This document shows, piece by piece, positions 1 through 7,845 of a stretch of DNA of 7,918 nucleotides. A program made the translations under genes and the position numbers. Source of the stretch: Desulfobacteraceae bacterium (GTDB lineage: Bacteria; Desulfobacterota; Desulfobacteria; Desulfobacterales; BuS5). Position 1 is the stretch's first letter. Each line of letters starts with the position of its first letter. The stretch covers positions 1 through 7,918 of the forward strand of contig JAUVKE010000107.1 of the NCBI GenBank assembly GCA_030592105.1. Reading direction: 5' to 3'. The notes beneath the pieces were generated by a model. The model was not told where the DNA came from. It saw nothing but the letters and a program-made list of their open reading frames with translations, and did no database searches.

Positions 1-1267
1 AATCGGAATCCTGTGTTTTTCTTCCGTTTATCTGCAGTTTTACACTGGCCATGGGAAAAACTGTAGTTCCGCTGGTAACATGGAGATAATCCAGGGAAAA
101 AACATCACTGCTCCTTAATATTCCTTCTGTTACAATGGATTCCAGATCTTCGTCCTCGATATTTTTTTTCTTGTCAGCCAGGGTTTTAAATTTTTTAAAG
201 ACAATTTGTAATTCTTCCCGGGAAAGGTCATACCCCATCTCTTTTAAATGAGCCTGGAGAGCATGTTTCCCTGAATGTTTGCCGAGTATAAGGCTGTTAC
301 TCCCGAGTCCCACTGTTTCAGGTTTCATTATTTCATAGGTCAGGGGGTTTTTAAGAACACCATCCTGATGAATTCCTGCTTCATGGGCAAATGCGTTGGC
401 ACCAACAATTGCCTTATTCGGCTGCACCATTATTCCTGTTATCATACTTACAAGCTTACTGGTGGGACATATCAGTTCTGTATTAATGTTTGAGGTCACT
501 GGGAAAACATTCTGTTTTGTATGTATTGCCATGGCCACTTCTTCTAAGGATGTATTTCCTGCTCTTTCTCCTATGCCGTTTATCGTCACCTCCACCTGCC
601 TTGCCCCTGCCTTGATCGCAGCCAGGGTATTTGAAGTGGCAAGCCCAAGATCATTATGGCAATGAACACTTAAAACAGCTTTGTCTATATTTGGAGTATG
701 GGCCTGTACATAGTTTAAGAGTTCAGTATATTCATCCGGCACAACATATCCCACTGTATCAGGAAGATTTATTGTTGTTGCCCCGGCTTCGATGGCAGCT
801 CCAAAGACCTTGCACAAATAATCACGATCGCTTCGGGAACCATCTTCTGCAGAAAATTCAATATTATCGGTAAATCCCTTGGCATATTTTACAGCCTCGA
901 TTATATCCTGTAAAACTTGATCCCTTGTGGAGAGAAGCTTATGTGTAATATGAAGATCAGAGGTGGCAACAAAAATATGTATCCTGGGCTTTACAGCATG
1001 TTTAACAGCTTGCCAGGCAAGATCAATGTCCTCTTTTGCAGTACGCGTTAATGCAGCTATCTCCGTATTTTTAAGTTTACCGGCTATTTCAGTAACCGCT
1101 TCCAAATCTCCTTCTGAGGCTGCAGGGAAACCTGCCTCTATAACATCAACTCCGAGTTTTTCCAGTTGTACCGCAATTCTGAGTTTTTCAGCAGTATTCA
1201 TGCTGGCCCCGGGTGATTGTTCACCATCTCTTAATGTTGTATCGAAAAAAATTAATCTATCACTCAT
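1..1267 (-). CDS. leuA: 2-isopropylmalate synthase, 3' end beyond the window
   Basis: First committed step of leucine synthesis: condenses acetyl-CoA with 2-ketoisovalerate to 2-isopropylmalate in the cytosol. The 422 visible codons are open with no stop. The HMGL-like TIM barrel shows FDTTLRDGEQ at residues 8-17 (metal-binding Asp and catalytic Arg), HCHNDLGLA from His202 with metal ligands His202 and His204, a GIGERAGN motif near 229-238 and HEAGIHQDGVLKN near 294-306. Alignment by eye to E. coli LeuA is nearly gap-free over this span. About 100 C-terminal residues, including most of the leucine-sensing regulatory domain, are missing off the left edge. ATG at 1267 is chosen because an in-frame TAG lies four codons upstream and the catalytic motif falls at the family position. 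The Shine-Dalgarno-like GGGAG is rather far, about 12 nt upstream. It lies 86 bp after ilvC, last visible gene of the operon. Homocitrate or citramalate synthase is less likely given the LeuA-type motifs. Confidence 0.95.
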   Translation of the reverse strand, partial: MSDRLIFFDTTLRDGEQSPGASMNTAEKLRIAVQLEKLGVDVIEAGFPAASEGDLEAVTEIAGKLKNTEIAALTRTAKEDIDLAWQAVKHAVKPRIHIFVATSDLHITHKLLSTRDQVLQDIIEAVKYAKGFTDNIEFSAEDGSRSDRDYLCKVFGAAIEAGATTINLPDTVGYVVPDEYTELLNYVQAHTPNIDKAVLSVHCHNDLGLATSNTLAAIKAGARQVEVTINGIGERAGNTSLEEVAMAIHTKQNVFPVTSNINTELICPTSKLVSMITGIMVQPNKAIVGANAFAHEAGIHQDGVLKNPLTYEIMKPETVGLGSNSLILGKHSGKHALQAHLKEMGYDLSREELQIVFKKFKTLADKKKNIEDEDLESIVTEGILRSSDVFSLDYLHVTSGTTVFPMASVKLQINGRKTQDSD

Positions 1268-1353: not shown

Positions 1354-2415
1354 TCAGCTGTTTTTTTTGTTACGATTTTCCGGTCTTAGTGCACGAACCG
1401 CAGCACCGGCCTGCCACATTTCAGAATTTTTAATCTCATCTAATTCTTTTGTAAGTTTTTCCAGATAATCCGGTTTACTGTTTGATTCCAATACTATTTT
1501 TGTCTCCTGTCCACTTTTAACACTATGATATAAGTCTTCAAAGACAGGAGCCACAGCATCTCTGAATTTTGGAGCCCAGTCCAAAGCTCCCCTTTGAGCT
1601 GTGGTGCTGCAGTTTGCAAACATCCAGTCCATTCCATTTTCTCCCACAAGACGGATGAGGCTCTGTGTGAGTTCCTCAACTGTTTCGTTAAAAGCCTCAC
1701 TTGGAGAGTGGCCGTTTTTTCTTAAAACATTATATTGAGCTTCCATGGTTCCTGCGATGCATCCCATTAAAACTCCCCGTTCTCCTGTGAGATCACTGTA
1801 AACCTCGTCTTTGAAAGTTGTTTGAAAAAGGTATCCTGATCCTATGGCAATTCCCAGGGCAAGAGTCCTTTCCTTTGCTTTTCCCGTAAAGTCCTGATAA
1901 ACGGCAAAACTTGAATTAATACCGCTTCCATCGAGAAAATTTCTCCGCACATTTGTCCCTGAACCCTTTGGTGCCACCAGAATAACATCGACAAAGTCAG
2001 GAGGAATAACTTTTGTCTGATCTTTGTAAACAATGGAAAAACCGTGGGAAAAATATAGAGCATCACCTTTATTAAGGCATTCTTTAACTGTTGGCCAGAC
2101 AGCAGCCTGGCCTGCATCTGAAAGGAGCATCTGGATAATTGTTCCCTGCTTTGCCGCCTCTTTAATGGGGAAAAGGGTTTTTCCTGGAATAAAACCATCA
2201 GATATTGCTTTTTTCCAATAGGTGTCCCCTTCAAGCTGGCCTATGATCACGTTAAATCCGTTGTCTTTAAGATTCAGAGCCTGGGCAGGTCCCTGTACAC
2301 CATAACCTAAAATAACAATGGTCTCATCTTTTAGTACTTCCCTGGCCTTTTCAATGGAAAACTCCTCGGAAGTAATAACCTCTTCTATTACACCCCCAAA
2401 ATCGATATTGCCCAT
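1354..2415 (-). CDS. ilvC: Ketol-acid reductoisomerase, short fungal/Bacteroidetes-like type
   Basis: Isomerises and reduces acetolactate or acetohydroxybutyrate to the dihydroxy acids, with Mg2+ and NAD(P)H. The protein is 353 aa. The Rossmann nucleotide motif GYGVQG is at 37-42, His124 lies in FSHGF, Lys150 in APKGSG, the first metal pair is Asp208 and Glu212 (SDLTGE) and the second Glu244 and Glu248 (NETVEE). Ser270 lies in CSTTAQRG. Long stretches (LYFSHGF, VILVAPKGSG, NGHSPSEAFNETVEE, QRGALDW, RPEN) match fungal mitochondrial Ilv5 and the related Bacteroidetes enzymes rather than the long E. coli IlvC. The 2'-phosphate loop reads GQLEGDTYW (59-67), with Leu, Glu, Asp and Tyr where relatives usually have Arg, Lys and Ser, so NADH use is possible (inference). 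A strong Shine-Dalgarno AAAGGGGG lies 5 nt before the ATG. The 124-bp gap to ilvN is AT-rich with no terminator seen. Confidence 0.96.
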   Translation of the reverse strand: MGNIDFGGVIEEVITSEEFSIEKAREVLKDETIVILGYGVQGPAQALNLKDNGFNVIIGQLEGDTYWKKAISDGFIPGKTLFPIKEAAKQGTIIQMLLSDAGQAAVWPTVKECLNKGDALYFSHGFSIVYKDQTKVIPPDFVDVILVAPKGSGTNVRRNFLDGSGINSSFAVYQDFTGKAKERTLALGIAIGSGYLFQTTFKDEVYSDLTGERGVLMGCIAGTMEAQYNVLRKNGHSPSEAFNETVEELTQSLIRLVGENGMDWMFANCSTTAQRGALDWAPKFRDAVAPVFEDLYHSVKSGQETKIVLESNSKPDYLEKLTKELDEIKNSEMWQAGAAVRALRPENRNKKNS

Positions 2416-2539: not shown

Positions 2540-3028
2540 TTATTTCAATCCCCGGGACAAGGCCACTACCCCTGTTTTTGCAATCTCCGTAATCCCCATT
2601 GGTCTTAAGAGAGTTAATATCGCAGACAATTTGTCTTCAGTGCCCGTTACCTCCACTGTATAATGTTCAAAGCCCACGTCAACAACCTTACATCTGAAGA
2701 TATCTATTATTCTTAAAATTTCCGCCCGGGTATCAGGTTTGGCATGGACCTTTATTAAAGCCATCTCCCTTTGGACAGATTTAATCTCTGTGAGATTATG
2801 AATATTTATTACATTAATAAGTTTATGGATCTGTTTTTCGATCTGTTCCACAACAGAGTCAGCAGCTTTTGTAATAATAGTAATTCTCGATATATTCGAA
2901 TCCATGGTTTCGGCAACACAAAGACTTTCAATATTAAACCCTCTGCCGCTAAACAGACCTATGACCCGTGACAAAACGCCGGGACTGTTATCCACAAGAA
3001 TTGAAAGAGTATGTTTTTTCATTGTCAT
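2540..3028 (-). CDS. ilvN: Acetolactate synthase small (regulatory) subunit
   Basis: Regulatory subunit of acetohydroxyacid synthase; it binds and stimulates the large subunit and confers feedback inhibition by valine. The protein is 162 aa, close to E. coli IlvH (163 aa). An N-terminal ACT domain (about 6-78) has the valine-site signature, with Asn14 and Gly17 (VDNSPGVLSRVIGLFSGRG) and Asn32 in FNIESL. These correspond to IlvH Asn11, Gly14 and Asn29, so feedback sensitivity looks intact. The C-terminal ACT-like domain runs from about 85 (ALIKVHA, TGTEDKLSAILTLL). The first ATG at 3028 is preferred over the ATG two codons later because AGGA sits 7 nt upstream of it. It lies 250 bp downstream of ilvB rather than being tightly coupled, because a palindromic element fills the gap. 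The symbol ilvH would serve equally well. Confidence 0.95.
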   Translation of the reverse strand: MTMKKHTLSILVDNSPGVLSRVIGLFSGRGFNIESLCVAETMDSNISRITIITKAADSVVEQIEKQIHKLINVINIHNLTEIKSVQREMALIKVHAKPDTRAEILRIIDIFRCKVVDVGFEHYTVEVTGTEDKLSAILTLLRPMGITEIAKTGVVALSRGLK

Positions 3029-3278: not shown

Positions 3279-4964
3279 TTATACCAGCAGCATTTCAGTG
3301 ATTGATGCTCCCACCGGAACCATGGGGAAAACCCCTTCTTCTTTTTCAACAATAAATTCCATTATAACAGTTTTGTCTGAAGAAAGACCCTCGGCTAAAA
3401 CAGATTCAACATCTTCCGGTTTTGAGGCTCTTAAGCCTTGTGCACCGTATGCTTCCGCCAGTTTGACAAAATCGGGAGCATGCTCCATTGATGTGCTGGA
3501 ATATCTTTTATCATAAAAGAGTTCCTGCCATTGCCTTACCATTCCAAGATATTTATTGTTCAAAATTACAACTTTAACCGGAAGCTTATACTGAACCGCA
3601 GTTGCCATCTCCTGTATATTCATCTGTATGCTGCCGTCGCCGGCCACATCCACAACAAGTTTATCAGGGCAGGCTATTTGTGCTCCAATGGCAGCAGGGA
3701 GTCCAAAGCCCATGCATCCGAGTCCCCCTGAAGTAATAAATCTATTGGGCTGATCAAAATGATAATATTGGGCGGCCCACATCTGGTTCTGCCCCACTTC
3801 TGTGGTTATTATTGCATTACCCTTTGTGTATTCATATAATTTTTCCACAACATATTGTGGTTTTATTATATTTTTCTGCTTATAGGACATGGGTGTGGAA
3901 TCTTGCCATTGCCTGATCTGATCCAGCCATTTTTCTCTTTTTCCTCCTATATCTCCAAAATCTTCCTGTTTTATAAGATTATTAAGGAGCCCAAGGGTAA
4001 TTTTACAATCTCCCACAATGGGGACGGAAACAGGGACATTTTTTCGTATTGAAGTGGGGTCTATATCTATGTGTACAATATCGGCACCGGCTGCAAAAGT
4101 ATCTATTTTACCGGTTACACGGTCATCAAAACGGACCCCTGCAGCAATGAGTAGATCGCATGTCCCGACTGACATATTTGAACGGTAAGTCCCATGCATG
4201 CCGAGCATGCCGAGCCATAATGGATCTGTTCCGGGAAAAGTTCCCAGGCCCATGAGGGATCCTGTCACAGGGATCTGCATTCTTCTTGCAAATTCCGTAA
4301 GCTCTTTTGATGCTTTGGAAAGAATAACTCCCCCGCCAGCAAAGATGACAGGTTTTTTCGCTTTTTTAATAAGGCTTATAACCCTGTTGAGCTGCTTTAT
4401 GTTCGGATTATATGTGGGATTATACGATTTTAAGGTCACCTGATCCGGTATTTTGTAATCTGTTTTTTCATTTACAATATCTTTTGGCATATCAATCAAA
4501 ACAGGTCCTGGCCGTCCTGAAGATGCTATATAAAAAGCCTCTTTAATGGTTTTTGCGATATCAGCAGGATCTTTTATAAGATAATTATGCTTTGTACAGG
4601 GTCTTGTCATGCCGACAATGTCGACTTCCTGGAATGCGTCATTTCCTATGAGATGTGTGGGGACCTGACCCGTGATAACAACAAGGGGGATTGAATCCAT
4701 ATATGCAGAAGCAATACCTGTTATTGCATTTGTTGCGCCGGGTCCTGATGTTACCAGGCATACACCAGTTTTGCCCCCTGCTCTGGCAAAACCATCTGCT
4801 GCATGAACAGCCCCTTGTTCATGGCGAACCATAATATGTTTTATATCTGCTCTGAAAAGTTCATCATATATATCGAGCACAGCACCGCCAGGGTATCCGA
4901 AAATCGTATCAATTCCCTGACTCTTTAACGCTTTTATGAGAATTTGCGCACCTGTTAACTTCAT
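3279..4964 (-). CDS. ilvB: Acetolactate synthase large (catalytic) subunit
   Basis: ThDP- and FAD-dependent acetohydroxyacid synthase catalytic subunit, making acetolactate (valine, leucine) or acetohydroxybutyrate (isoleucine) from pyruvate. The protein is 561 aa, as in E. coli IlvB (562 aa). The N-terminal pyrimidine-binding domain has GYPGGAVLDIYDEL at 23-36 and the ThDP-activating Glu49 in VRHEQGAVHAADG. The central FAD-linked domain contains RFDDRVTGK. The C-terminal domain has the ThDP motif GDGS from Gly442 to Asn470 (LNN), followed by KYLGMVRQWQ with the conserved Trp479. The open frame extends 42 codons further upstream, into ilvD. That extension has no family similarity, whereas MKLTGAQIL is a typical AHAS start with AAAGGG about 8 nt before the ATG, so 4964 is chosen. 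It lies 64 bp downstream of ilvD. Confidence 0.96.
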   Translation of the reverse strand: MKLTGAQILIKALKSQGIDTIFGYPGGAVLDIYDELFRADIKHIMVRHEQGAVHAADGFARAGGKTGVCLVTSGPGATNAITGIASAYMDSIPLVVITGQVPTHLIGNDAFQEVDIVGMTRPCTKHNYLIKDPADIAKTIKEAFYIASSGRPGPVLIDMPKDIVNEKTDYKIPDQVTLKSYNPTYNPNIKQLNRVISLIKKAKKPVIFAGGGVILSKASKELTEFARRMQIPVTGSLMGLGTFPGTDPLWLGMLGMHGTYRSNMSVGTCDLLIAAGVRFDDRVTGKIDTFAAGADIVHIDIDPTSIRKNVPVSVPIVGDCKITLGLLNNLIKQEDFGDIGGKREKWLDQIRQWQDSTPMSYKQKNIIKPQYVVEKLYEYTKGNAIITTEVGQNQMWAAQYYHFDQPNRFITSGGLGCMGFGLPAAIGAQIACPDKLVVDVAGDGSIQMNIQEMATAVQYKLPVKVVILNNKYLGMVRQWQELFYDKRYSSTSMEHAPDFVKLAEAYGAQGLRASKPEDVESVLAEGLSSDKTVIMEFIVEKEEGVFPMVPVGASITEMLLV

Positions 4965-4984
4965 AATCGACCCTTTTTTGTTTA

Positions 4985-5003
4985 TATAGATGTTCATATA
5001 AAT
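4985..5003. repeat. Solo copy of the element end, between ilvD and ilvB
   Basis: TATAGATGTTCATATAAAT, identical over 19 bp to 3084-3102 at the left end of the palindromic element. Here it is embedded in a 22-bp near-palindrome at 4981-5002 with 7-bp arms TTTATAT/ATATAAA around 8 nt. It lies 20-40 nt upstream of the ilvB start, inside the operon. It could be a remnant of a second element copy or a recurring intergenic signal. No partner end is seen nearby. Confidence 0.6.
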
Positions 5004-5028
5004 GATTGACAAGAGACTAAAGAGAGCC

Positions 5029-6696
5029 TTAAAGAACCGCCCCTTTATTTGCAGATGAAACCAACCGTGAATATCTGGCCATATATCCATGTTTTATTTT
5101 TGGTTCAGGGGGGGACCATTTTGCCAGCCGGTTTTTAATCTCACCATCGGAAATTTCAAGACTCAGCTTTTTTTCAGGGATATCAATGGATATAATGTCA
5201 CCCTCCCTGACAATAGCAATGGGGCCCCCGTCCATTGCTTCCGGTGAGACATGGCCTATTGATGCCCCTTTTGTTCCACCGGAAAATCGGCCATCTGTGA
5301 TAAGCGCCACATGGCCATCGAGGTGCATGCCTGCAATGGCAGAAGTGGGAGTAAGCATTTCACGCATACCTGGACCTCCCTTGGGACCTTCATAACGTAT
5401 GACAATAACATCCCCTTTATTGATTTTTTTCTCCATGATTGCAGCAGATGCATCCTCCTCTGAATCGAACACCCTGGCGGGGCCTTTGTGGCGCAACATC
5501 TCAGGAAGAACTGCAGACTGCTTGACAACAGCTCCGTCGGGAGCAAGATTGCCGAATAATACCGCAAGCCCCCCTTCTTTATGGTAGGGAGTTTCAACAG
5601 ATTTGATTATGGTGTTGTCTTTAATATTACTTGCTTTACTATTATCACCAATGCTTTTTCCTGTGACCGTTAAACACTCCTTATTTATCAAATCAATCCT
5701 GGATAGTTCTTTGATTACAGCCGAGATTCCGCCGGCACTGTCTAAATCCTGAATATGATGTGTCCCTCCAGGGCTTAAAGAACATATATGGGGGGTTTTT
5801 TTACTGATTTCATTAATAAGGTTTAAATCTATATCAATTCCAGCCTCTTTTGCTATGGCGGGGAGATGGAGCACAGTATTGGTGGAACACCCCAGGGCCA
5901 TATCCACAACAAGAGCATTTTCAAACGCTTCTTTGGTCATTATGCGACGCGGTGTTATCTGTTTTTCCAAAAGTTCTGTGATTTTGAAACCAGCCTCTTT
6001 TGCAAGCCTGATACGCTGGGACATAACCGCGGGTATTGTTCCGTTTCCCGGAAGTCCCATACCTATAACTTCGGTGAGGCAATTCATGGAATTTGCTGTA
6101 AACATACCAGCACAGGATCCGCATGTGGGGCAGGCAGCATTTTCGATTAATGTCAGATCTTCTTCACTCATTTGGCCGGATTTTACAGCTCCCACAGCTT
6201 CAAAAACAGTTACCAGGTCAATTTTATTGGTGGCCCCTTTTAGCGGATTATCCCCGGCAAGCATGGGACCCCCGCTTATGACAATGGTGGGAAGGTTAAG
6301 GCGGGCTGCAGCCATGAGCATTGCCGGGACAATTTTATCACAATTAGGCACCATAACCATGGCATCAAAAGCATGGGCAACTGCCATAACCTCAATGGAA
6401 TCGGCAATGAGTTCTCTGCTTGCAAGGGAATACTTCATTCCTGTATGATTCATGGCTATCCCGTCACACACACCTATTGTCCCGAATTCAACGGGAAGTC
6501 CCCCCGACATATATATCCCGGCTTTAACAGCTTCTGATATTCTGTCCAAATTGATATGGCCGGGAATAATCTGGTTGGCAGAATTGGCTATTCCTATGAC
6601 AGGTCTTTTAAGTTCCATGTCAGTATAACCCATAGCCTTAAAGAGACTTCGGTGGGGAGCCCTTTCAATACCTTTTTTTACAACATCGCTTTTCAT
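5029..6696 (-). CDS. ilvD: Dihydroxy-acid dehydratase
   Basis: Iron-sulfur dehydratase converting 2,3-dihydroxy acids to the 2-keto acids of valine and isoleucine. The protein is 555 aa, full length for the family. Visible family motifs: [14 protein letters not shown] at 34-47, [17 protein letters not shown] with Cys77, [13 protein letters not shown] with Cys119, [17 protein letters not shown] with Cys189, Cys192 and Cys195, [20 protein letters not shown] and DGRFSGGT with the catalytic-type Ser472. PGH stands where many [2Fe-2S] enzymes have a cysteine (PCN), as in the oxygen-labile E. coli enzyme. That suggests an E. coli-like cluster and an anaerobic or low-oxygen habit (inference). It is the first structural gene of the operon. 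The ATG at 6696 has AAGGA (6704-6708 on the complement) about 7 nt upstream and begins 17 nt after the attenuator U-tract, so its ribosome site is made only on read-through. Confidence 0.97.
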
Positions 6697-6713
6697 GGTT
6701 TTATCCTTTTCCC

Positions 6714-6759
6714 AAAAAAAAATCCGTTATCAGCTTAAAAAAAGCTGATAACGGATTTT
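6714..6759 (-). terminator. Intrinsic terminator of the ilv attenuator (3:4 hairpin)
   Basis: On the minus strand a perfect 18-bp stem (right arm 6742-6759, left arm 6719-6736, loop of 5 nt at 6737-6741) contains TCCGTTATCAGC and its complement. It runs straight into nine U's (A's at 6714-6722 on the plus strand). It lies between the leader-peptide stop and ilvD, so it can only regulate the operon downstream. It is read here as the termination half of an attenuator. Confidence 0.93.
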
Positions 6760-6840
6760 ATACTGCTTAAACAGATGCTTAAACCCTTATCAGCCCCCCT
6801 CGACAGGGGAAACAAGTAGCTCGGATAGTAGGAGCCTGAC
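6744..6840 (-). promoter_or_regulatory. Alternative leader-RNA stems 1:2 and 2:3 (pause and antiterminator)
   Basis: Segment 2 (6799-6781 on the complement, G6 then CTGATAAGG) can pair two ways. With segment 3 (6758-6744) it forms an 8-bp run GCTGATAA/TTATCAGC plus two more G-C pairs after one mismatch; this uses the 5' arm of the terminator and so prevents it forming. With segment 1 (6840-6831, GTCAGGCTCC) it forms about 9 of 10 pairs including wobbles. Segment 1 lies in leader codons 11-14, and segment 2 holds the leader stop codons. Ribosome position would therefore choose between the folds: stalled at codons 4-20 favours 2:3, and reaching the stop covers segment 2 and favours termination. 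Drawn by eye; no folding energy was computed. Confidence 0.82.
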
Positions 6841-6870
6841 AATGATGTTTGAAGCAATAATGTTAAACAT
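6790..6870 (-). CDS. ilvL: ilv operon leader peptide, 26 aa
   Basis: A short ORF rich in branched-chain residues, whose translation controls the attenuator. From ATG at 6870 the product begins MFNIIASNIIV, continues RLLLSELLV and ends SPVEGG, with tandem stops TGA TAA. Of 26 residues, 4 are Ile (4, 5, 9, 10), 5 Leu (13-15, 18, 19) and 3 Val (11, 20, 23), so 12 are operon end products. Three of the five Leu codons are CTA. A GGTGA ribosome site lies 5 nt upstream of the ATG, and the predicted transcript start is about 45 nt upstream. Its sequence differs from E. coli ilvL and ivbL; the assignment rests on composition, position and the overlapping RNA stems. The symbol is used by function, not homology. 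Confidence 0.92.
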   Translation of the reverse strand: MFNIIASNIIVRLLLSELLVSPVEGG

Positions 6871-6921
6871 AATATTCACCGACAAATTATTTTAAATATA
6901 ATTTTTTTAAAAGAAGCTTTT

Positions 6922-6950
6922 TAAATAGCAAGCAACACAGCCATTGTCAA
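6922..6950 (-). promoter_or_regulatory. Sigma70-type promoter of the ilv operon
   Basis: On the minus strand a perfect -35 TTGACA (6950-6945), a 17-bp spacer and a -10 TATTTA (6927-6922; 4 of 6 to consensus). The predicted start is near 6915, giving a leader of about 220 nt before ilvD. AT-rich sequence follows. No obvious operator palindrome overlaps it, consistent with control mainly by attenuation. Confidence 0.8.
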
Positions 6951-7322
6951 ATCTTTTCCTTGAGAAACTGAATATTTGCATAAGAAAATGTGAAATAATC
7001 AGTGAAATATAGTCAACAGTTGTGTATGGGCGATTAAGTGGTCTATTCTTCGGGAAATTGTTTCCTGGTAATAACCCGATTATTTTTCAATAAAAAAAAC
7101 GAAAGTATACACACACTGGGCGGGGCCTAAAAATGTTGACAGTTAATTAAGCCATTTGCTCCATATGCGAGGGATCGATCTTTGTATATCGCACGGTTCT
7201 TCGCCCTATGTGTCAGGATAGAAGTTGGCAGAGGTAATTAAAGGGGTTAAAATTATCAATGGAATGAAAAAAAGCGGGGTGCCAGCTAATTTATCATACA
7301 CATAATTTGATTATATCTCAAA
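6951..7322. other. Intergenic region between the ilv promoter and the toxin gene
   Basis: About 370 bp without a convincing intact gene on either strand. It holds a possible short integrase-like remnant (7147-7212) and an AT-rich inverted repeat at its right edge (7302-7326). A weak CGGGAAA/TTTCC...CCCG fold lies near 7050-7078. Otherwise nothing recognisable is seen. Confidence 0.6.
7147..7212 (-). pseudogene. Possible 3' remnant of a tyrosine recombinase gene
   Basis: A 21-codon open stretch on the minus strand, ending in TAA, reads HIGRRTVRYTKIDPSHMEQMA. It resembles the C-terminal box of phage-type integrases (GH..I.TT.RYTH..P.H), where the Tyr is the nucleophile. It is preceded in frame by TGA and has no start or upstream domain, so it could only be a decayed fragment. 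The match is short and could be chance. Confidence 0.25.
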
Positions 7323-7326
7323 TTAT
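7302..7326. repeat. AT-rich inverted repeat spanning the toxin stop codon
   Basis: Perfect 9-bp arms ATAATTTGA (7302-7310) and TCAAATTAT (7318-7326) around a 7-nt loop. The right arm contains the toxin TAA. The stem is AT-rich and no U-run follows in the minus direction, so it is at best a weak terminator or a 3'-end stabilising hairpin. Confidence 0.4.
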
Positions 7327-7589
7327 TCATAATGTGTCCATAGACGAATAATTTTTACAATTTTTTCTTTGTTCATTGTCTGATAAACTATCCGGTGCTG
7401 AATATTTATTCGACGTGAATATGCACCTGCTAAATCACCTATTAATTTTTCAAAAGGTGGTGGAACTTGATATGGATTTTTATGAAGAATATTTATCAAT
7501 GCTTCAGCTTTTTGCTTAAGACCAGAAGCGGATATTTTTTTTGCATCTTTTTGAGCTTGTTTGGTAAAAACAACTCGCCAGGTCACCAC
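7323..7589 (-). CDS. yoeB: Toxin of the Txe/YoeB family (ribosome-dependent mRNA endonuclease)
   Basis: Type II toxin of the RelE superfamily; relatives cleave mRNA in the ribosomal A site and are held inactive by the YefM antitoxin. 88 aa against 84 in E. coli YoeB. The catalytic residues align: Glu47 (PPFEKL), Arg66 (QHRIVY), and the terminal His86-Tyr87 (WTHYE), as in YoeB Glu46, Arg65, His83 and Tyr84; the SRRI motif is at 58-61. One extra Glu follows the usual His-Tyr end. The start is GTG, either 7589 or the adjacent GTG at 7586. The latter gives the common 4-nt GTGA overlap with the antitoxin stop and an 87-aa product. AGAGGA lies 6 or 9 nt upstream. All active-site residues are present, so it looks functional. 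Confidence 0.93.
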   Translation of the reverse strand: MVTWRVVFTKQAQKDAKKISASGLKQKAEALINILHKNPYQVPPPFEKLIGDLAGAYSRRINIQHRIVYQTMNKEKIVKIIRLWTHYE

Positions 7590-7825
7590 TCGATTTCCTC
7601 TTTGCAGTTTTCAATTGGAGTTGACAAGCCGTCTTGAATAGATTCCCGCATTCCTGGCAAATTTAGTAAATACATAGTCTCTTGAATAGCACGCCAGTCA
7701 TCTTCCGAGATAAGAACTGCGTTTCCTCGTTTGCCGGTGATTATGATTGGTTCGTGTGTCATCGACGTTTCATCTATAAGTCGGTATAATTTTGTTCTTG
7801 CTTCAGTTGCTGATAATGTTGGCAT
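7583..7825 (-). CDS. yefM: Antitoxin of the Phd/YefM family
   Basis: 80-aa antitoxin; in this family the N-terminal half dimerises and binds DNA to autorepress the operon, and the C-terminal tail wraps the toxin. The sequence runs MPTLSATEARTKLYRLIDE, then PIIITGKRGNAVLISEDDWRAIQET, then MYLLNLPGMRESIQDG. It tracks E. coli YefM through the SATEAR, NAVLIS and ETxYLL blocks, and the tail is acidic. ATG at 7825 is chosen because GAGGTG sits 5 nt upstream; the frame is open four codons further to a TTG at 7837, but that would overlap the ribosome site. The gene overlaps the toxin by 4-7 nt, the usual antitoxin-first order with coupled translation. It is separated from the ilv promoter by about 370 bp and is likely an independently acquired module. 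Confidence 0.93.
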   Translation of the reverse strand: MPTLSATEARTKLYRLIDETSMTHEPIIITGKRGNAVLISEDDWRAIQETMYLLNLPGMRESIQDGLSTPIENCKEEIEW

Positions 7826-7845
7826 GGTACACCTCAATAGTTTTT

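Follow-up and report, generated by a model that had tools for sequence, protein, structure and literature searches.

Upstream of the branched-chain amino acid (BCAA) operon on the minus strand of this DNA (7,918 nucleotides, hereafter the window), a short open reading frame (ORF) rich in Ile, Leu and Val is followed by a hairpin and a U run before ilvD. The question raised by this locus is whether these elements form a switch that controls the operon or stand together by chance. The earlier note on this DNA had called the element a translational attenuator, which is the wrong word for what is translation-coupled transcription attenuation. In the present study, we put the probability at about 0.9 that the element is a ribosome-mediated transcription attenuator, which would sense charged Ile, Leu and Val tRNA before ilvDBNC-leuA.

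The operon and its neighbouring genes

The genes of the operon, in the order ilvD-ilvB-ilvN-ilvC-leuA, were assigned by family models as follows.

5029..6696, minus strand: ilvD, first structural gene (NCBIfam TIGR00110, 800 bits, cut-off 618)
3279..5090, minus strand: ilvB, ORF as called (NCBIfam TIGR00118, 858 bits, cut-off 538)
2540..3028, minus strand: ilvN (Pfam PF10369, PF22629)
1354..2415, minus strand: ilvC (Pfam PF07991, PF01450)
2..1267, minus strand: leuA, truncated by the window end (NCBIfam TIGR00973, 627 bits, cut-off 599)

The ilvB ORF as called overlaps ilvD. The family models start near its residue 40-45; therefore, translation of ilvB probably begins downstream of the called start, around MKLTGAQ (residue 43). 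Upstream of the leader, at 7323-7837 on the minus strand, Pfam models identified a gene pair for an antitoxin of the Phd/YefM type and a toxin like YoeB/ParE, and the toxin gene has its end at 7323, which is 373 nt from the -35-like element described below.

Organization of the leader

The features of the leader are listed with the evidence for each.

6945..6950, minus strand: TTGACA, -35-like element of the probable promoter before the leader (sequence; recurrence in relatives)
6922..6927, minus strand: -10-like element TATTTA, spacer of 17 nt after TTGACA (sequence; relatives)
6876..6880, minus strand: GGTGA, possible ribosome-binding site of the leader ORF (sequence)
6787..6870, minus strand: leader ORF of 26 codons, MFNIIASNIIVRLLLSELLVSPVEGG, then TGA TAA (sequence; kept in the sister locus L226)
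6796..6809, minus strand: small hairpin CCCCU-GUCG-AGGGG within the final codons of the leader ORF (fold)
6781..6795, minus strand: segment 2 (GGCUGAUAAGGGUUU), 5' strand of the antiterminator, holding both stops (15-bp pairing, one bulge)
6743..6758, minus strand: segment 3, common to the antiterminator (2:3) and the terminator (3:4) (fold; family pair counts)
6719..6759, minus strand: intrinsic terminator hairpin (3:4), 18 bp, 5-nt loop (fold, terminator scan, family pairs)
6714..6722, minus strand: run of nine U, T in DNA (sequence; four U also lie within the 18-bp stem)

The sense codons of the leader ORF run from the ATG at 6870 to 6793 and are followed by the tandem stops TGA (6792-6790) and TAA (6789-6787). 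All the parts first described for this ORF, namely 26 codons with 12 Ile/Leu/Val residues, the putative ribosome site GGTGA and the tandem TGA TAA, were present. Ile, Leu and Val make up 24.4% of the residues in the five window proteins, and the binomial probability of at least 12 of 25 in the leader was 0.009, uncorrected for the number of ORFs. The composition of the ORF by itself is weak evidence for a leader.

The arms of the terminator lie at 6759-6742 and 6736-6719 and its loop at 6741-6737. The hairpin and the U's had been described as 18 bp plus nine U, and both were found; four U had been counted twice, and the element is properly read as 18 bp with 5 U or as 14 bp with 9 U. The distance of 17 nt from the end of the U run to the ilvD ATG at 6696 was confirmed in the sequence. 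A scan of 6600-7350 found one terminator-like site, compared with 0.4 expected.

The folding check proposed in the earlier note was carried out, and the terminator was obtained as the minimum-energy fold, with a z of -5.25 for the 219-nt leader; none of 200 dinucleotide shuffles was equally stable. When the RNA ended at the 5' arm of the terminator, a 15-bp antiterminator with one bulge was formed between 6795-6781 and 6758-6743, and when the 3' arm was added, the minimum-energy fold switched to the terminator. The stops therefore fall, as had been claimed, within the RNA strand able to pair with the terminator's 5' arm, and this pairing had family support as given below. The small hairpin, whose arms pair 6809-6805 with 6800-6796, occupies a place equivalent to that of hairpin H of the relatives. 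In summary, the leader combines an ORF with control codons, an intervening intrinsic terminator and a mutually exclusive 2:3 pairing on the 5' arm of that terminator.

The sister locus

A search for IlvN in 389 genomes of one class led to a sister genome (G363), whose IlvN was 87% identical. Its leader locus (L226) shared 92% DNA identity with the window (901 of 978 positions), and the alignment began at about window position 6976, just ahead of the promoter-like site. In L226, the 273 bases before the alignment start were unalignable to the window, and this stretch falls short of the toxin-antitoxin position. The promoter-like site, the leader ORF, the first stop and the terminator were retained, and the leader peptide (MFNIIASNIIVSLLLSELPVSPVKRG, then TGA) was kept in frame. 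A change of U to G at 6789 removed the second stop together with one 2:3 pair. Four of the six substitutions in the sense codons altered a residue, among them Leu19 to Pro, by which one Leu was lost. Given the kept frame, the residue changes and the change in segment 2, the attenuator device appears to be kept in the sister, with visible drift. A candidate compensating change between the window and L226 in the small hairpin (6809-6796) was dropped, since it would need a shifted register.

Related leaders in other genomes

The upstream regions of 80 ilvD loci from public genomes were scanned and read by eye. Besides the window, 19 of the 80 loci carried an Ile/Leu/Val-rich ORF together with a CCGTTATCAG-type terminator, and their records named Desulfobacterales, Desulfobacteraceae, Desulfococcaceae, Desulfosarcina or Deltaproteobacteria. 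In 60 of the 80 loci, including the Desulfobacterales loci L010, L012, L013 and L015, no such leader was seen before ilvD; another locus (L003) was practically without upstream sequence. The window and the 19 loci, chosen by eye, were aligned (alignment A1, 20 leaders). From A1, the ORF-internal hairpin H and the terminator were used to construct covariance model R1, with the 2:3 pairing left out of the model. The genomes of L009, L012, L015 and L020 held an R1 match elsewhere in the genome, and in three such genomes, the matches (L087, L137 and L147) precede a citramalate synthase or leuA-like gene.

At E <= 0.001, a threshold that is unspecific alone since bare terminators read on the wrong strand reached 49.9 bits, R1 matched 326 of the 389 genomes, which probably represent the class Desulfobacteria; IlvN matched 352 of the same genomes. 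Stricter filters were applied in R1 searches over more than 40 genomes. The best E was below 1e-6 in all but four of the 326 genomes (G271, 1.1e-6; G227, 3.9e-6; G291, 2.6e-4; G356, 5.6e-4). Across the phylum, 16 of 198 genomes matched, 7 of which had already been drawn in the first class. Among 26 genomes behind other ilvD loci, 4 matched; these were 4 of the 5 genomes also drawn in the first class, and none of the 21 others matched. In the class of a Desulfobulbaceae genome, R1 matched 0 of 97 genomes, a set with no known positive, so that the empty answer shows nothing.

R1 had been built from BCAA leaders, so the high BCAA content of its strong matches is in part a product of the training; a better test is given by 30 hand-chosen genomes with weak best R1 scores. 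In these, 28 of the 30 fetched matches precede ilvD, ilvB or a leuA-like gene. Over 123 loci, window included, the Ile+Leu+Val fraction of the leader was at least 0.40 in 113 and at least 0.33 in 120, where the richest fitting ORF had been taken in each locus. The next gene in these 123 loci was ilvD in 84, ilvB in 31 and a leuA-like gene in 5; in three (L104, L128 and L148), no downstream gene was found. The leuA-like genes tested were citramalate synthase by NCBIfam, both in two of the five (L127 and L181) and in L087, which lies outside the 123. Collectively, the comparison suggests that the leader family is present in most searched genomes of the class, and the window peptide appears to be a new sequence belonging to a divergent member of this family.

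Nine phylum genomes outside the 389, which likely belong to other classes, held R1 matches at eleven places with E-values of 1.1e-8 to 7.1e-4, and the gene downstream was leuA-like in 8, ilvB in 2 and aroC in 1. Two of the eight leuA-like genes (L240 and L243) were tested and were citramalate synthase. The leaders before the leuA-like genes (L240, L241, L243-L246, L249 and L250) showed a shared ending in six of the eight cases, namely LIM, LMM or LLM followed by one or two further residues, and these ends appear to be segment 2 codons in another frame. The match upstream of aroC (chorismate synthase), at 30714-30861 of G640 contig 86 (L248), had an E of 7.8e-5; its leader, MGYQLIMFTYQSVQDYYFFYYTWRGTGLPMD, has many aromatic residues, which suggests a Phe/Tyr/Trp attenuator of the same build. 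In another genome (G002, which holds L001), a second attenuator (L088) was observed before ilvB, with the Ile-rich leader MTNTLTIINRVGIIIIIAAGIITRCGRRG.

The promoter-like site was also compared among the relatives. TTGACA was found 45-69 nt upstream of the R1 match in 52 of the 59 loci with enough flank (the window among the 59), compared with 5 of 59 when the bases of each were shuffled once. At the -10 position given by a spacer of 17, 50 of the 52 loci began with T and 47 had A as the second base. A generic promoter scan missed the TATTTA site of the window because its last base is other than T. From the promoter-like arrangement TTGACA-17-TATTTA, we infer a leader transcript start near 6915, and a start downstream of 6790, which the earlier note had set against its own reading, is not indicated. 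At the sequence level, a putative promoter thus lies upstream of the leader ORF, as in an attenuator.

These results bear on the explanation that an ordinary terminator, belonging to the toxin-antitoxin pair or to read-through, stands by chance next to a small ORF in AT-rich DNA. It is true that the terminator is strong on its own and that the ORF composition reaches only the uncorrected P = 0.009. However, the toxin gene ends 373 nt before the -35-like element, the sister similarity begins right before that element, and the ORF, the antiterminator and the promoter-like site recur in relatives. The leader ORF recurs ahead of ilvD, ilvB and cimA, which largely refutes a chance ORF. On this recurrence, we rejected a chance ORF or plain terminator, an explanation that we now regard as scarcely credible. 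The comparative evidence, in which L226 keeps the promoter-like site, the ORF and the terminator and equivalent leaders occur in many genomes, confirmed that the observed elements are real and that the leader, as judged from sequence, is more than chance.

Pairing and covariation of the stems

The pairings were counted in A1 and in a larger alignment (A4) of 100 leaders, which consisted of 99 of the 123 loci plus L226, with 24 loci omitted to reduce redundancy. In A1, 89.1% of the cells of H and the terminator were paired, compared with 85.1% after shuffling. The antiterminator reached 93.3% against 91.5% (slid registers 15-56%), and the pairing of segment 2 with segment 1 (1:2), the putative protector, reached 73.3% against 74.5% (slid registers 33-43%). 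The A4 counts were compared with 500 shuffles, which do not model relatedness. The terminator was paired in 96.5% of the cells against 91.0% shuffled, with 66 double-changed cells against 19.5, and hairpin H in 88.0% against 74.1%, with 127 against 34.5; these two structures had guided the alignment, which biases the counts in their favour. For the antiterminator, 90.5% of the cells were paired against 87.4%, with 29 double-changed cells against 12.5 and at most 51.5% in slid registers. The 1:2 pairing reached 78.1% against 76.0%, and its pairs and pair types showed no clear excess; it had 34 double-changed cells against 16.9 and was far more complementary than slid registers (22-53%, at most 52.9%).

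A mutual-information scan of all columns with no structure given placed one terminator pair and four H pairs at the top. Pairs of 2:3 were found at z 6.4 (135-199) and z 5.3 (133-202), and pairs outside any proposed helix (e.g. 20-212, 137-215 and 136-214) were found at z 6.6-7.0; with non-helix pairs reaching z 7.0, the scan backs H and the terminator more than 2:3. Taken together, the terminator, the antiterminator and the ORF-internal hairpin H are supported by pairing and covariation in the 100 leaders. The comparison with relatives that had been suggested at the outset thus returned both Ile/Leu/Val-rich ORFs and covarying stems.

Of the family pairs, those that can form in the window number 14 of 14 for the terminator, 13 of 14 for the antiterminator, 9 of 12 for 1:2 and 2 of 11 for H. 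Hairpin H was rejected as a window feature in register, with 2 of 11 pairs, and it is a family feature lost or rebuilt in the window's lineage. Within the family, H may serve to pause the polymerase or to time its progress. For segment 1 of the window, the duplex energy compared with codon shuffles gave z -1.5 and p 0.08; the family mean was left out because segment 2 was misplaced in at least five loci (L002, L004, L006, L017 and L025).

Long conserved segments, with CCGUUAUCAG nearly invariant, and a covarying hairpin H would also be expected of a metabolite riboswitch, a T-box or a protein-bound leader, in which the ORF would be incidental or merely tuning. Rfam covers T-box and known riboswitches. 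No Rfam family was matched at the gathering score in the window or in 20 related loci. The 20 weak Rfam hits (13-24 bits) were far below curated scores, and a known RNA family was rejected. Moreover, invariance is expected where one strand must pair with two others, and the stop codons hold their position in two frames. We consider a leader of the riboswitch, T-box or protein-bound type very unlikely.

Position of the stop and folding with a ribosome

In 69 of 100 leaders, the first base of the leader stop falls within segment 2; in 29 of 100, the stop begins 3 nt past segment 2 and in another frame. The choice of ORF allowed a 45-nt range of stop positions. Thus, the family conserves the RNA segment and where the stop lies, but not the end of the peptide. 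This bears on the explanation that the product of the leader ORF is itself the active agent, whether as a small protein or an arrest peptide, in trans or within the ribosome exit tunnel. A hydrophobic run like LISLIIxLVVGVL is kept in many relatives, which speaks for such an action. However, the window and sister peptides are without a motif of this type, yet the context, 2:3 and 3:4 are kept; the conserved residues fall on hairpin H and the segment 1 stretch, and the C-terminus of the peptide is read in different frames among the leaders. Action of the peptide itself is highly improbable.

Masked folding was performed on 118 of the 123 leaders, the other five being without a terminator anchor, and covered the RNA from the leading edge of the ribosome (assumed at 12 nt from the first A-site base) to just before segment 4. 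With the A site 8-21 codons before the stop, segment 3 was paired upstream with a mean P of 0.91-0.94; the value was 0.57 at 4 codons before the stop. A ribosome at the stop lowered the mean to 0.19, with 10 of 118 leaders keeping segment 3 paired upstream at P >= 0.5. In the window, this probability was 0.89 for A sites through codon 22; it fell to 0.77 for Val23 and 0.25 for codon 24, and a ribosome at the stop gave 0.39. A stall at Val23 had been expected to cover segment 2 and leave termination in place; with the assumed footprint, the values of 0.77 at codon 23 and 0.25 at codon 24 spoke against this. These results indicated that a stall at the Ile/Leu/Val codons would free segment 2 and favour read-through, and that a ribosome at the end of the ORF would block segment 2. 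The stop is placed for such occlusion in 98 of 100 leaders, in agreement with the masked folding.

Without a ribosome, equilibrium folding held segment 3 upstream in 104 of the 118 leaders, including the window (0.88), and left it mostly free in 14. The earlier note had proposed that a stalled ribosome masks segment 1 and so permits 2:3; this part was not borne out, with 1:2 near shuffled levels in both alignments (73.3% against 74.5% in 20 leaders, 78.1% against 76.0% in 100) and 104 of 118 leaders held without a ribosome. Given this last count, an untranslated leader lacking 1:2 would read through, unlike in the textbook model.

The same attenuator might therefore operate without a working 1:2, with read-through as the default, termination imposed by translation to the stop, and expression raised by any failure of translation. 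The equilibrium folds and the near-shuffled 1:2 covariation speak for this variant. However, complementarity of 1:2 at 78.1% compared with at most 52.9% in slid registers, and its 34 double-changed cells compared with 16.9, speak for a 1:2 pairing, and in 14 of the 118 leaders segment 3 was mostly free even in the equilibrium folds. In addition, equilibrium folding ignores that 1:2 and H would form before segment 3; real polymerases make segment 3 later than segments 1 and 2, so that a kinetic 1:2 state is possible. We regard default read-through as quite possible, though on balance doubtful.

The control codons of the window include Leu CUA at leader codons 14, 15 and 18, which make up 3 of its 5 Leu codons, compared with 6 of 170 Leu codons in the five window genes. 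As CUA is rare in these genes, the three codons in the leader should add leucine sensitivity. Over the 123 leaders, CUA accounts for only 80 of 605 Leu codons, so that the emphasis on CUA is no family trait. One study reportedly concerns rare leucine codons in Salmonella attenuation.

Proposed mechanism

For the attenuator, we infer leader translation, stalling, the start site, termination and the starvation response. RNA polymerase would start near 6915 and transcribe the leader ORF, and a ribosome would follow. When amino acids are plentiful, the ribosome would reach the stops in segment 2 and cover this segment, the 3:4 pairing would form, and transcription would terminate in the U run before ilvD. 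Under a shortage of charged tRNA for Ile, Leu or Val, the ribosome would stall upstream and leave segment 2 free; 2:3 would then form ahead of the synthesis of segment 4, and the polymerase would enter the operon. The rare leucine codons CUA at positions 14, 15 and 18 of the leader would heighten the leucine response.

A broader proposal is that segments 2, 3 and 4 form an exchangeable module, with BCAA leaders before ilvD, ilvB or cimA and an aromatic leader before aroC, which would be widespread in the class and apparently present in other classes of its phylum. Under this proposal, read-through would be the default and H would replace 1:2; translation to the stop would impose termination, and the ORF-internal hairpin would time the polymerase. 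We consider the module proposal unlikely as a whole.

The attenuator provides a testable account of the control of branched-chain amino acid synthesis in many members of one class. Covariance model R1 finds the element in most searched genomes of that class, and about a hundred natural variants are available for asking whether a classical attenuator needs a 1:2 protector. The interest of the family lies mainly in its breadth and in the doubtful 1:2 protector.

Comparison with known systems

In the enteric ilv and leu leaders, an ORF with control codons precedes a terminator before the genes, an antiterminator uses the 5' arm of this terminator, and charged tRNA exerts the control. PMC1183508 describes such attenuation in E. 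coli or Salmonella, naming trp, his, leu, ilvGMEDA and ilvBN.

Several leaders before BCAA genes have been reported in other bacteria. According to PMC10272879, the ilvB-II motif of Corynebacterium, like the ilvB-OMG and Leptospira ilvB motifs, has a BCAA-rich upstream ORF before a BCAA gene, and attenuation was proposed; a reporter test is listed for ilvB-II, and ilvB-OMG is said to occur in various phyla. The present leaders resemble ilvB-II, ilvB-OMG and the Leptospira ilvB motif of that source in having a BCAA-rich ORF before a BCAA gene; they differ in that ilvD rather than ilvB lies downstream in most loci, and ilvB-II and the Leptospira motif belong to lineages other than that of the window (PMC10272879). 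As for ilvB-OMG (PMC10272879), no Rfam family matched the window or 20 related loci here. The ilvD motif WRC-18-2, given in PMC8632094 as found in Veillonella only and classed as a weak riboswitch candidate, is likewise a structured leader before ilvD and has a terminator sometimes. In Actinobacteria, a candidate BCAA leader peptide and a terminator precede ilvB, as in the present family though in a different lineage; for ilvB of Streptomyces, the authors note that altered candidate codons were without effect (PMC1262725). The main text of a broad attenuator survey (PMC2965389) contains no words beginning with 'ilv' or 'Desulf'. In the open-licence literature, searched by title and start of abstract, no such leaders were found in Desulfobacterales or Desulfobacterota; older surveys may hold predictions.

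The window leader differs from the enteric leaders in its peptide, RNA sequence and operon order; its stops lie inside segment 2, its relatives have hairpin H within the ORF, and the 1:2 protector is only putative here. It is like the E. coli and Salmonella ilvGMEDA, ilvBN and leu leaders in its control-codon ORF, terminator, shared-arm antiterminator and predicted control by charged tRNA, and the likeness in logic to the E. coli leaders claimed at the outset held, with mutually exclusive 2:3 and 3:4 and a stop in segment 2. In summary, the predicted switch is of a classical type, with relatives in most of the searched genomes of one class.
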